In this document: positions 48,729-52,013 of the stretch, one piece after another
Layout: each line of letters opens with the position of its first letter
Numbering within the stretch: the stretch's first letter is position 1
NCBI GenBank assembly: GCA_026129405.1
Contig: JAHCID010000007.1
Location: 124,001 to 188,000 of the forward strand
DNA from: a bacterium
GTDB lineage: Bacteria; Desulfobacterota; Binatia; DP-6
Direction of reading: 5' to 3'
DNA length: 64,000 nucleotides
The notes under the pieces: model-generated
Told to the model about the DNA's origin: nothing
Databases searched by the model: none
What the model saw: the letters and a program-made list of their open reading frames with translations, nothing else
Program-made: the position numbers and the translations under genes

Positions 48729-49496
48729 CTACGGCCGGATCGTGATCCCGCCGTCCACCGGGATCACCGTGCCCGTCACGTACGCCCCTGCCTTCGACGC
48801 GAGGTAGATCGCCACGCCCGCCATGTCGTCCGGCTCGCCGATGCGGCCGAGCGGGCAGCTGGCGACGATCGCGTCGCGGAAGCGATCGAGCGTCACCGCC
48901 ATCATCTTGCTCTCGAATGGGCCCGGGGCGACGGCGTTCACGGTGATCTTCGGCGCGAGACGCGCCGCGAGCACGCGCGAGAGGTGGTGCACCGCGGCCT
49001 TGCTGGACGAGTACGCGAACGTCTCCAGCATCGGCACGCGCAGGCCGTCGATCGAGCCGATGTTGATGACCCGTCCCGGATCGCCCGGGCCTGCCGCCGC
49101 CTCGAGCAGCGGGACGCAGGCGCGGGTCAGGTGGAAGACGCCCTTCAGGTTGAGCGCCAGCACCTTGTCCCAGGCGTCGTCGGGGTAGCTCTCGAGCGGC
49201 GCGCCCCAGTTGGCGCCGGCGTTGTTCACGAGCACGTGGAGCTTCGGCTCGCGGTCGGCGATGGCCTTCGCGAGCCCGTCGCAGCCGGCCTGCGTGCCGC
49301 AGTCGGCGGCGAGCGGGATGCACGTGCCGAGCTTCGCCAGCTCGGCGGCGGCCTCGTCGCAGGCGGACTGCTTGCGCGACGAGACGTAGACCTTCGCCCC
49401 GCCCTCGACGAAGCCGCGCGCGATCATGAGGCCGATGCCGCGCGAGCCGCCGGTGACGAGGACGACCTTGCCCTTGACGGAGAAGAGATCGCTCAT
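48729..49496 (-). CDS. SDR-family oxidoreductase (RhlG/FabG-like)
   Basis: A 255-residue classical SDR: TGGSRGIG (15-22), VNNAGANWG near 90-98, Ser in NIGSIDG, Tyr/Lys in Y-S-S-S-K, and a C-terminal G-T-V-I-P-V-D-G-G. The DGLRVPMLETFAYSSSK stretch is typical of the RhlG/beta-ketoacyl reductase-like subgroup. ATG 49496 has TAGACC 15 nt upstream. The substrate is unknown. Confidence 0.9.
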   Translation of the reverse strand: MSDLFSVKGKVVLVTGGSRGIGLMIARGFVEGGAKVYVSSRKQSACDEAAAELAKLGTCIPLAADCGTQAGCDGLAKAIADREPKLHVLVNNAGANWGAPLESYPDDAWDKVLALNLKGVFHLTRACVPLLEAAAGPGDPGRVINIGSIDGLRVPMLETFAYSSSKAAVHHLSRVLAARLAPKITVNAVAPGPFESKMMAVTLDRFRDAIVASCPLGRIGEPDDMAGVAIYLASKAGAYVTGTVIPVDGGITIRP

Positions 49497-49630
49497 GGGC
49501 CGGGAGGTCTAGCGCAACCCTCCCGGCCAGCCTACCCCGCCGGCGCGAAGCCGCCGGGGCCGGGCCTCCATCCGCGATCCGCCACCGTCCGAGGGTCGCG
49601 ACACCGGCGCCGGGCGGGGCGGCGGACCAC

Positions 49631-49700
49631 GGCCCGCCGCCCGCCGCTCGCCGCTCGCCGCTCGCCGCTCACCGCTTGCCGCCGGCCGCTTGCCGGCTGC
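49631..49700. repeat. heptamer tandem repeat, consensus CGCTCGC, about 9-10 units
   Basis: Consecutive 7-nt units run through 49631-49700. Three identical CGCTCGC copies (49645-49665) are flanked by one- to three-base variants (CGCCCGC, CGCTCAC, CGCTTGC, CGCCGGC). The period is exactly seven, so it is not codon-driven. It lies just before the long inverted repeat and the four-helix-bundle gene. Confidence 0.85.
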
Positions 49701-49756
49701 GCGCTCGCGCTGACCGCGCTCGGAGCTGCACCGACATCGAATGCATCGACGCGCAG

Positions 49757-49986
49757 TCTCCTCGGTGGTGCCGTCCACGCTCGTGCGGTCGCCTCACCCT
49801 TGCGCCGCGCCGCGCACCGGCGCTTGCCGAGCGCATGACCGGCCGTGCCTGCGCGATCGACCGCCGCACAGCTGCGCCTCCGACGTGACGTGCACGTCCG
49901 CGCGCGCGCTCGTCACGCGCCGTGCGCGTCTGCGGCGCGAGCGGGTGAGAGCCGACCGCACGGCGCGGACGGCACCACCGAGGAGA
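49757..49986. repeat. long imperfect inverted repeat capping the four-helix-bundle gene
   Basis: The outer arms are a perfect 20-bp match: 49757-49776 pairs with 49967-49986. Pairing continues inward over about 23 more bases (49777-49799 with 49943-49966) with a few mismatches and a bulge. The about 140-nt centre (49800-49942) shows further partial complementarity and holds the palindrome GACGTGCACGTC. The right arm ends in AGGAGA, the Shine-Dalgarno sequence of the gene at 49992, so a folded transcript would hide it. Confidence 0.8.
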
Positions 49987-49991
49987 AACCC

Positions 49992-50321
49992 GTGTTCGAT
50001 GCCCTCGAGATGTCCCTGCAGTTCCTGGAGCGCCTGGTCCCCGTCGAGACCCGTATCCGCCAGCGCAGCGCCTCGCTCGCCAAGCAGCTCGCCCGCGCGT
50101 CCGAAAGCGTCGCGCTCAACCTCGGCGAAGGTCGGCTGCGCTGCGACGGCGACAAGCGCCGGCACTACGAGATGGCCGCGGGCAGCGCCGCCGAGGTCAC
50201 CGTCGCGCTGCGCATCGCGGTCGCCAAGCGCTACGTCCCCGCCGCCGAGGTCGCCGAGCTCGAGGCGCTGCTCGATCGCGTCCGCGCGATGCTGTGGCGT
50301 CTGACCCACCACCGGCGGTGA
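49992..50321 (+). CDS. four-helix-bundle protein (S23/IVP family)
   Basis: 109 residues, all helical, matching the four-helix-bundle family named after the 23S rRNA intervening-sequence protein. Features are the early F-L-E-R-L-V-P, the S-L-A-K-Q-L-A-R-A-S-E-S-V-A-L-N-L-x-E-G core, and Y-E-M-A-A-G-S-A-A-E-V. The family forms pentamers and binds nucleic acid. The related Avd protein works with diversity-generating retroelements, but no reverse transcriptase or rRNA is present here. GTG 49992 is set by GAGGAG 7-12 nt upstream, which lies in the inverted repeat. Confidence 0.85.
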   Translation: MFDALEMSLQFLERLVPVETRIRQRSASLAKQLARASESVALNLGEGRLRCDGDKRRHYEMAAGSAAEVTVALRIAVAKRYVPAAEVAELEALLDRVRAMLWRLTHHRR

Positions 50322-50403
50322 TGGCCTCGCCTCCCCCGGGGAGCGCGCGGGAGCCGTTTGTTCAGGATCGACAGCGGCGGCCTCGCCGTGATCGAGTAGC
50401 GCG

Positions 50404-50858
50404 ATGGCGAAGCGCTACCGCACGTGGAATCCCGCCCAGTCGTTCCTGCTGCCGCCGTCGCCGCTCGAGTGGCTGCCCGAGAGTCATCTGGCGTTCTTCA
50501 TCCTCGAGCTGGTCGCGCAGCTCGACCTCGACGCGATCGACGAGACGTTGCAGCGCAAGGACCCGCGCGGCGAGCGTCCGTACGCACCGCGGATGATGGT
50601 GGCGCCTGCACGTGGACGCATGCGCGCCGTGCTCGCGACCTCCGAAGGCAAGGCCGTCTATGCACGACGCAAGTGCACCGTCGAGCCCGTCTTCAGATCG
50701 TCAGCGCTCGCGGCTTCCGCACGTTCCTGCTGCGCGGTCTGCGCAAAGTCCGCTGCGAGTGGGCCCTCGTCTGTCTCACCCACAACCTGCTCAAGCTCTT
50801 CCGCGCTGCAAACCGCACGGTGAGCGCGCTGGCCAGCCCCGCCACCGCCGCTGCCTGA
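50404..50858 (+). mobile_element. collapsed IS1182-type transposase
   Basis: The first 65 residues (MAKRYRTWNPAQSFLLPPSP onward, through Y-A-P-R-M-M-V) are the start of an IS1182-family DDE transposase. The frame then jumps into C-terminal sequence (A-S-E-G-K-A-V-Y-A-R-R-K-C-T-V-E-P-V-F). After one frameshift near 50693 it continues in another frame (IVSARGFRTFLLRGLRKVRC, then L-L-K-L-F-R-A-A) to the stop at 50858. About 300 or more residues of catalytic core are missing. It is not active. Terminal repeats were not identified. Confidence 0.8.
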
Positions 50859-50928
50859 ACTCCATCGCACGCGTCGCGCGCGCCGCCCCCGGCGTCCGAG
50901 GCGCCGAACGACTACGCACGACACGTTC

Positions 50929-52013
50929 CTACGCCGGCGCGCGCTCGGCCAGGAACTCGGGCCGCGGCGCGGTCCCGCCACCCGGCTCGCCGTGCTCCCG
51001 AAGTCGATCACCTGGAAGGTGTCCTGCGGGTGCATGCGATCCAGGATCCAGCGCATCGTCTCCTTCGCCTTGTCGAGCGGCGCGCCCATCTGCGAGCCGG
51101 AGCGGTCGATGACGAAGACCAGCTCCTTCGGCGCCGCCTCCGCCGCCGGCACGCGGCGCGGCGGCACCAGCACGACGCTCACATAGCCGTCGCCGCTCGC
51201 CGTGCGGTGCGTCAGATAGGCGCTCTGCACGTCGTCGCTCGCCACCGCCCAGCGCAGCACGAAGTCGCGGTTCGGGATCTCGCGCGCCTGACGCAGGCGG
51301 ACGCGGGCCGTGGTCGGCGTCGGCCGCTCCACGTCGATCGCATGCAGCGCCGAGGTCACCGCCTGGATCGGCACGCCGGCGTCGACGGCGACGGCGATCG
51401 CGATGTCGTGCCCGGCGCGCCTGCCCTCGGGCGTCACCGGCGGCGTCACGCGATCGGCGTCCGGCGTCCCGGGCGGCGAGAAGCGCGGCCCGACGACGGT
51501 CGGGAAGGTCAGCTCGAACGTGCCGTCGGCGTAACGCAGCGGCTCCGTGTACTCGAGGTGTACCTCCACGCCGGCGCCGGGCATCAGGTTGGCGACGCGC
51601 TGGGTGAAGACGTTCGGCCGCTCCTCGTCGAGGAGCGCCGCCACCTGCCCCGCCTGCTTGGCGGCGTCGTAGATGGCCTGTGCCTCGGCGCGGCGCTCGA
51701 TCTCGCCCTCGATCGTGCGCGCGCCGGTCGTGAGCCGCATGGTGTCGACGGCGCCCTTCTCCGAGAGCGGGAAGGTGTAGACGGCCTCGATCGGATCGGG
51801 GAACGGGTTGCGGAAGCGCTGCGTGATCGACACGCGCGCGACGAAGCCTGCGACCGACACCTGCACGTCGGTGTGCTCGAGCGGGCAGCCGCCGCGCGAC
51901 GTGCCGTCGGGCGCGAGCGCGTCGAGCCCGGCGGTGACGGCCGGCGCGGCGGCGGCAGGAGCGCCGCCGAGAGCGGCGCAGACGAGGGGGACGAGAGCCA
52001 GGGACCTTCGCAT
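50929..52013 (-). pseudogene. VIT/von Willebrand A protein, truncated and out of frame at the 3' end
   Basis: From ATG 52013 (AAGGAGG ribosome-binding site upstream) the protein has a signal peptide, a VIT domain (about 30-160; TDVQVSVAGFVARVSITQRF, NPFPDPIEAVYTFPLSE), and the start of a vWA domain with the MIDAS motif DRSGSQMG. After DTFQVIDFG (about 51000) normal vWA sequence stops. What looks like the true C-terminus (A-P-R-P-E-F-L-A-E-R-A-P-A) follows in a shifted frame to 50929. At least the rest of the vWA domain is deleted. The break lies about 70 bp from the transposase remnant. Confidence 0.75.

Follow-up and report, generated by a model that had tools for sequence, protein, structure and literature searches.

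The 64-kb window, by which we mean the whole 64,000-nt stretch of DNA that was analysed, carries a long hairpin followed directly by a gene for a small four-helix-bundle (4HB) protein. We think it quite likely that together they form a single copy of a multicopy unit that spreads horizontally, and whose Avd/S23-like protein recognises its own hairpin and promotes the spread of the unit. The unit is apparently an undescribed multicopy element, common in a group of deltaproteobacteria; we call it new because it had no match in Rfam, Pfam, PADLOC or the open-access literature, where no paper describing such units was found. Its parts come in the order degenerate 6/7-nt tandem array, hairpin, 4HB gene and, usually, second array. 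The window copy lacks the right array and has an IS1182 remnant as its neighbour. Features of the window copy are:

49635–49708, plus strand: degenerate heptamer tandem array, (CGCCGCT)x10.4 (TRF period 7, 81% matches), on the array side of the unit
49757–49986, plus strand: long hairpin (inverted-repeat search, fold z-scores, covariance model R1)
49757–49776, plus strand: outer left arm with the anti-Shine-Dalgarno (anti-SD) TCTCCT at 49757–49762, a perfect 20-bp complement of 49967–49986 with covarying counterparts in relatives
49812–49834, plus strand: left side of the conserved inner core, GCGCACCGGCGCTTGCCGAGCGC (comparison of hairpins)
49908–49928, plus strand: right side of the conserved inner core, GCTCGTCACGCGCCGTGCGCG, with the GTCAY motif in a conserved internal loop (comparison of hairpins)
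49981–49986, plus strand: Shine-Dalgarno (SD) AGGAGA, at the end of the right arm (sequence)
49992–50321, plus strand: 4HB gene, GTG start, 109 aa, PF05635/TIGR02436 (profile matches, AlphaFold2 model, dN/dS)

The original prediction had reported an inverted repeat at 49757–49986 with a 20-bp perfect and a roughly 23-bp imperfect part. The repeat is present, its outer part pairing 49757–49780 with 49963–49986 (24 nt, 96% complementary, outer 20 bp perfect), but its extent had been understated: the whole segment is a single hairpin of ∼230 nt with arms of ∼105 nt, in which pairing continues nearly to the apex (the arm alignment has 80 Watson-Crick matches against ten mismatches and seven gap positions). 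The heptamer array just left of the hairpin had not been listed in that prediction. Folded as RNA, 49740–50000 reached −187 kcal/mol with z = −10.2, and 0/200 shuffles did as well. When the 64 kb were scanned in 981 sliding windows, two of these were slightly lower in energy, with z of only −3.9 and −2.6 against −9.7 for the hairpin, the sole stretch of the window to stand out from its own shuffles to such a degree. The right arm does end in AGGAGA, the SD of the gene at 49992, 5 nt before the GTG, and this SD is paired within the hairpin base. The hairpin matches no known structured-RNA family: Rfam 15 covariance models had no match over 49000–51500, and in 11 unit loci gave sub-threshold matches only, none located at hairpins. 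A promoter and terminator scan found nothing, the sigma-70 consensus being uninformative at 76% GC, and no target-site duplication was visible by eye at 49757/49986.

Assignment of the gene to the S23/IVP type held up. Its product scored 53 bits against PF05635 (cut-off 33.8, E 4.5e-14) and 52.9 bits against TIGR02436 (cut-off 24); all 22 relatives match PF05635 and no other family, and PADLOC returned no defence family. The AlphaFold2 model of the window protein (pLDDT 94.5) has four helices and is closest to S23-family structures, with TM 0.87 to 2RLD and 0.81 to 2GSC. Next it resembles DGR Avd, with a TM-score of about 0.8 to 4DWL and to the ribonucleoprotein structures 8UB7/8UBE. Values of dN/dS were 0.23 between the window copy and that of isolate MGR_bin64 (see below), 0.28 between the window and L172, and 0.25 between L228 and L229, so the protein has been kept. 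Near-identical copies gave 0.09 to about 1 from four to seven substitutions each, one such pair in genome G549 being at about 1 from just four. Apart from pairs that differ by only a few substitutions, these ratios indicate purifying selection on the protein.

As sole query, P0001 found no relatives among genome contigs, viral contigs, plasmids or phages. When 85,000 genomes were scanned with a profile, one near match emerged, L070 (87% aa identity), from Deltaproteobacteria bacterium isolate MGR_bin64, where there are 177 nt of a homologous hairpin and then the contig ends. Unit DNA of the window and MGR_bin64 is 84.6% identical over 49826–50306, with no match outside the unit. For rpoB, identity between these genomes is just 69.7% over 888 aa. 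The unit is thus far closer than the genomes, which indicates horizontal movement. MGR_bin64 contains additional copies, whole or truncated, in which the hairpin is likewise preceded by heptamer arrays. The protein type occurs in 29 of the 35 genomes of the MGR_bin64 order, at up to 24 copies or matches each; inverted pairs are frequent, as are positions at the end of a contig.

For comparison of units, 40 regions were retrieved, many of them from fragmented MAGs. G549 has six copies with near-identical 4HB genes, and what these copies have in common is limited to the stretch from array to array. The genes flanking units are unrelated to one another: they encode an EF-Tu-type GTPase, a glutathione S-transferase, an iron-sulphur/molybdopterin oxidoreductase, a HAD hydrolase, an ABC transporter, a TPR protein, a glutathione peroxidase and a sugar transferase. 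No reverse transcriptase domain was found among the neighbours scanned at the window and the other units, and no transposase domain, Y1 included, among those at the other units. We ran R1, a covariance model of the hairpin, over one whole genome, that of G549; it found 13 hairpins, every one (13/13) directly upstream of a 4HB gene and on its strand. Over 407 kb of control sequence, other 4HB loci included, R1 had no match. On the window hairpin it scored 125 bits on the strand of the gene and 28 bits on the other. Close relatives of the window host, in its class, carry other 4HB subfamilies, mostly without such leaders, and a subset with strong nearby folds had no R1 match.

The original prediction of a stand-alone mobile unit is strongly supported by the multicopy dispersal, by the hairpin-gene linkage and by the confinement of similarity to the unit; mobility itself is inferred. 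Against it, no transposition event was seen in the genomes compared and the unit encodes no mobility enzyme. No empty site was seen either: in relatives from the host's family, there is no synteny upstream of the SDR gene. The single copy in the window genome, its missing right array and the adjacent IS1182 remnant also count against this reading.

Some copies depart from the usual layout. At L205 (1470–2392), two near-identical divergent 4HB genes have in common one 293-nt palindrome (z = −24), each arm of which is the leader of one gene. L245 (G524:C482, about 756–1152) is a 5′-only copy that consists of an array and a left arm but lacks the right arm and the gene, which suggests that truncated copies exist. 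At L219, L223, L216 and L228 the unit apparently lies downstream of both flanking genes, which converge on it.

The genome of the window itself has one hairpin copy and one PF05635 gene, and no multicopy MITE was found in it. Classification of the unit as a MITE was rejected: each unit has a conserved gene (the dN/dS of 0.23 for window and MGR_bin64), and no duplication is visible. To the right of the 4HB gene lies an internally deleted remnant of an IS1182-family transposase (50404–50858), adjoined by a VIT/sortase-target gene (50930–52013, minus strand) whose family similarity stops near the remnant. The hairpin might be a MITE-like or IS-derived palindrome that came from this remnant and happened to land ahead of a domesticated 4HB gene. 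The N-terminal piece of IS1182 at 50404 and the length of the arms, reminiscent of terminal repeats, fit such an origin, which we nonetheless hold to be highly improbable: the hairpin has no second copy in its own genome, elsewhere it always goes with a 4HB gene and not with IS1182, and the similarity to the MGR_bin64 ortholog takes in the hairpin and the gene without extending downstream.

Compensatory arm changes across relatives, which the original prediction entailed, are present. Ten diverse hairpins aligned by sequence alone gave 42 consensus pairs, with both sides changed in 22. Paired cells amounted to 91.9% (77.7% in shuffles) and the covariation score was 0.343 (0.103 in shuffles); 0/500 shuffles reached either value. 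Slid controls scored 0.05–0.08, a comparison somewhat favourable to the structure, which was taken from the same alignment. The inner core is conserved in sequence as well, with GCGCAC..GCCGAGCGC on the left, GCGCTCGTCACG..CGTGCGC on the right and an internal loop around GTCAY. This motif is polar: among non-redundant upstream regions it occurred in sense in 33/51 and in antisense in 8/51, with shuffles at about 7. Upstream fold z had a median of −2.5 for unit genes and −0.6 for control genes (p 1e-8).

Which nucleic acid is folded was approached through the mismatches. Over 35 hairpins there were 37 G-U and 53 A-C oppositions without the array-type copy L192, and 58 and 54 with it; the held-out model alignment had 17 and 30. 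Selection on a sense RNA should tolerate G-U above A-C, and since the counts show no such preference, the test does not favour RNA pairing. A folded DNA strand is as likely as a folded RNA. The counts fit as well with copying of arm onto arm by template switching (quasi-palindrome correction), and DNA template switching can also produce covariation in a palindrome. It could therefore be that the hairpin is an inverted duplication without structural function, kept palindromic in this way; few G-U intermediates, many flips from G-C to C-G and the equality of G-U and A-C would follow. We rate this as quite improbable. Arm copying would erase the conserved mismatched internal loops and the strand-specific motif, and it leaves aside both the 13/13 linkage to 4HB genes and an architecture that is common to L166 and the window, very different as these are in sequence. 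Loops and polarity together speak against pure template switching.

The original prediction held that the leader hides the SD. This is so in the window copy and, judged by pairing of SD and anti-SD, in about half of 40 non-redundant relatives; in the rest the SD lies beyond the hairpin and the pairing is absent. Across the 40 units, the SD pairs with its own left arm at −39.6 kcal/mol and with the arms of others at −31.5 (p 2e-4), and the own arm ranks first in 13/40 and in the top three in 21/40. In many copies such pairing is kept although the sequences differ: TCTCCTCGGTGG in the window, GTCTCCTGG and GGTTCTCCGTCGC in L208− and L208+, GCAGCTCCTTCGTC in L189, GGTCCCTTTCGCG in L166 and TCCTTTCGGTGG in L233. 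Since about half of the copies have their SD outside the hairpin, masking cannot be its whole function, and is a frequent extension of the unit, not its universal core.

The same data bear on the proposal, in line with the original prediction, that the hairpin serves above all as a cis-regulatory leader in the RNA, with translation controlled by the protein, RNase III or another factor that acts on the hidden SD, and with passive spread. We find this rather unlikely, though it accounts for much: the burial of the SD in the window copy, its far better pairing with its own arm, the covariation of the SD/anti-SD helix, the strict placement of the hairpin on the strand of the gene and the end of the hairpin base just before the start codon. 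Against it stand the copies with an exposed SD and the lack of the wobble preference expected of a sense RNA helix, and it leaves arrays, copy number and inverted pairs unexplained.

Our preferred reading of the unit is a small selfish element, with an Avd-like protein that probably binds the hairpin beside its gene. The 4HB protein, of a family that forms pentameric rings, would recognise the folded strand of its own hairpin via the conserved internal loop, and the complex would promote spread of the unit with the help of host enzymes. Transcripts with both arms should be poorly translated, as the hairpin base covers the SD here and in about half of relatives, and the protein would thereby be kept scarce.

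Arrays are a constant companion of the unit. At 34/34 unit loci with usable flanks, 6/7-nt arrays lie alongside, on both sides in 23, and array density is 108 bases per kb at units compared with 17 in controls taken from the same genomes. In G524 C482 and C230, and in L214/L172, the hairpin copies are again preceded by heptamer arrays. Left and right arrays often have a vocabulary common to one element. Of nine single units with signal, seven have inverted and two have direct arrays, while arrays are direct in all four pairs with signal, which are divergent (loci in this contrast: singles L214, L216, L192, L217, L174 and L181; pairs L202, L203, L208 and L210). Insertion into a pre-existing array would yield direct arrays only, unlike the mostly inverted arrays of singles. 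It is a tentative possibility, one we would not bet on, that the unit represents a new class of minimal mobile element, consisting of one gene and one structured nucleic acid. The Avd-like protein and host enzymes would then insert or copy the unit, leaving degenerate hexamer/heptamer arrays at its ends, and the mirror-image arrays of the seven singles would be the outcome of repeats being added at each 3′ end of a linear DNA, as at telomeres; beside this stand the direct arrays of the four divergent pairs.

The unit resembles several known systems in part. Intervening sequences (IVSs) of 23S rRNA likewise combine a PF05635-family protein with a strong stem. That of Coxiella burnetii, termed a selfish element, has an S23 ORF, a stem-loop of −143 kcal/mol whose terminal stem measures 28 bp, and, ahead of the ORF, a few heptameric repeats (PMC4990558). 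However, these elements sit in 23S rRNA with the ORF between the arms of the terminal stem, whereas our unit is intergenic, with protein genes as neighbours, multicopy, flanked by long arrays on the outside, and its ORF starts 5 nt past the right arm. The unit was thus rejected as a 23S rRNA IVS, being outside any 23S rRNA gene and having an ORF not enclosed by the stem; the tie to 23S rRNA insertions drawn in the original prediction holds for the protein family but not for the locus. With DGR Avd the unit has in common the small 4HB fold; it differs in its long hairpin, and no reverse transcriptase domain was seen among the neighbours scanned. REP/BIME sequences with their RAYT, and IS200/IS605 ends, are likewise imperfect palindromes, GC-rich and dispersed, which share a conserved motif, are strand-polar and often stand in inverted pairs; the unit differs in having its own 4HB gene for each hairpin and a much longer hairpin, of ∼140–300 nt. 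Elhai and co-workers reportedly described, in 2008, small dispersed repeats of about 20–30 nt, without a gene, in tandem heptamers of cyanobacteria. By that description, they are like the unit in being mobile-looking repeats tied to degenerate heptamer arrays.

Stand-alone PF05635 proteins are widespread and have a fold in common with Avd, a reverse transcriptase partner. Here such a protein has a specific, conserved cis-partner in the motif-bearing hairpin, so that what these proteins bind and do can be put to a direct test of binding and mobility. The repeat family may also shape large deltaproteobacterial genomes and break their assemblies.

Another widespread 4HB subfamily (HEKLDVY...NIAEGNGK...DRRRYFEIARGSALE) was noted in Verrucomicrobia, Desulfobacterota, gammaproteobacteria and others. 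Near its genes, 6/7-nt arrays occurred at 29/79 loci (L082, L103, L115, L075, L133 and L136 among them), a count without matched control, and some of the arrays fold as hairpins. The association with arrays may be general for stand-alone 4HB genes. Many proteins of this subfamily (L071–L149) have C-terminal tails of the type DPDSDPD..., apparently translated from hexamer arrays that enter the end of the gene.
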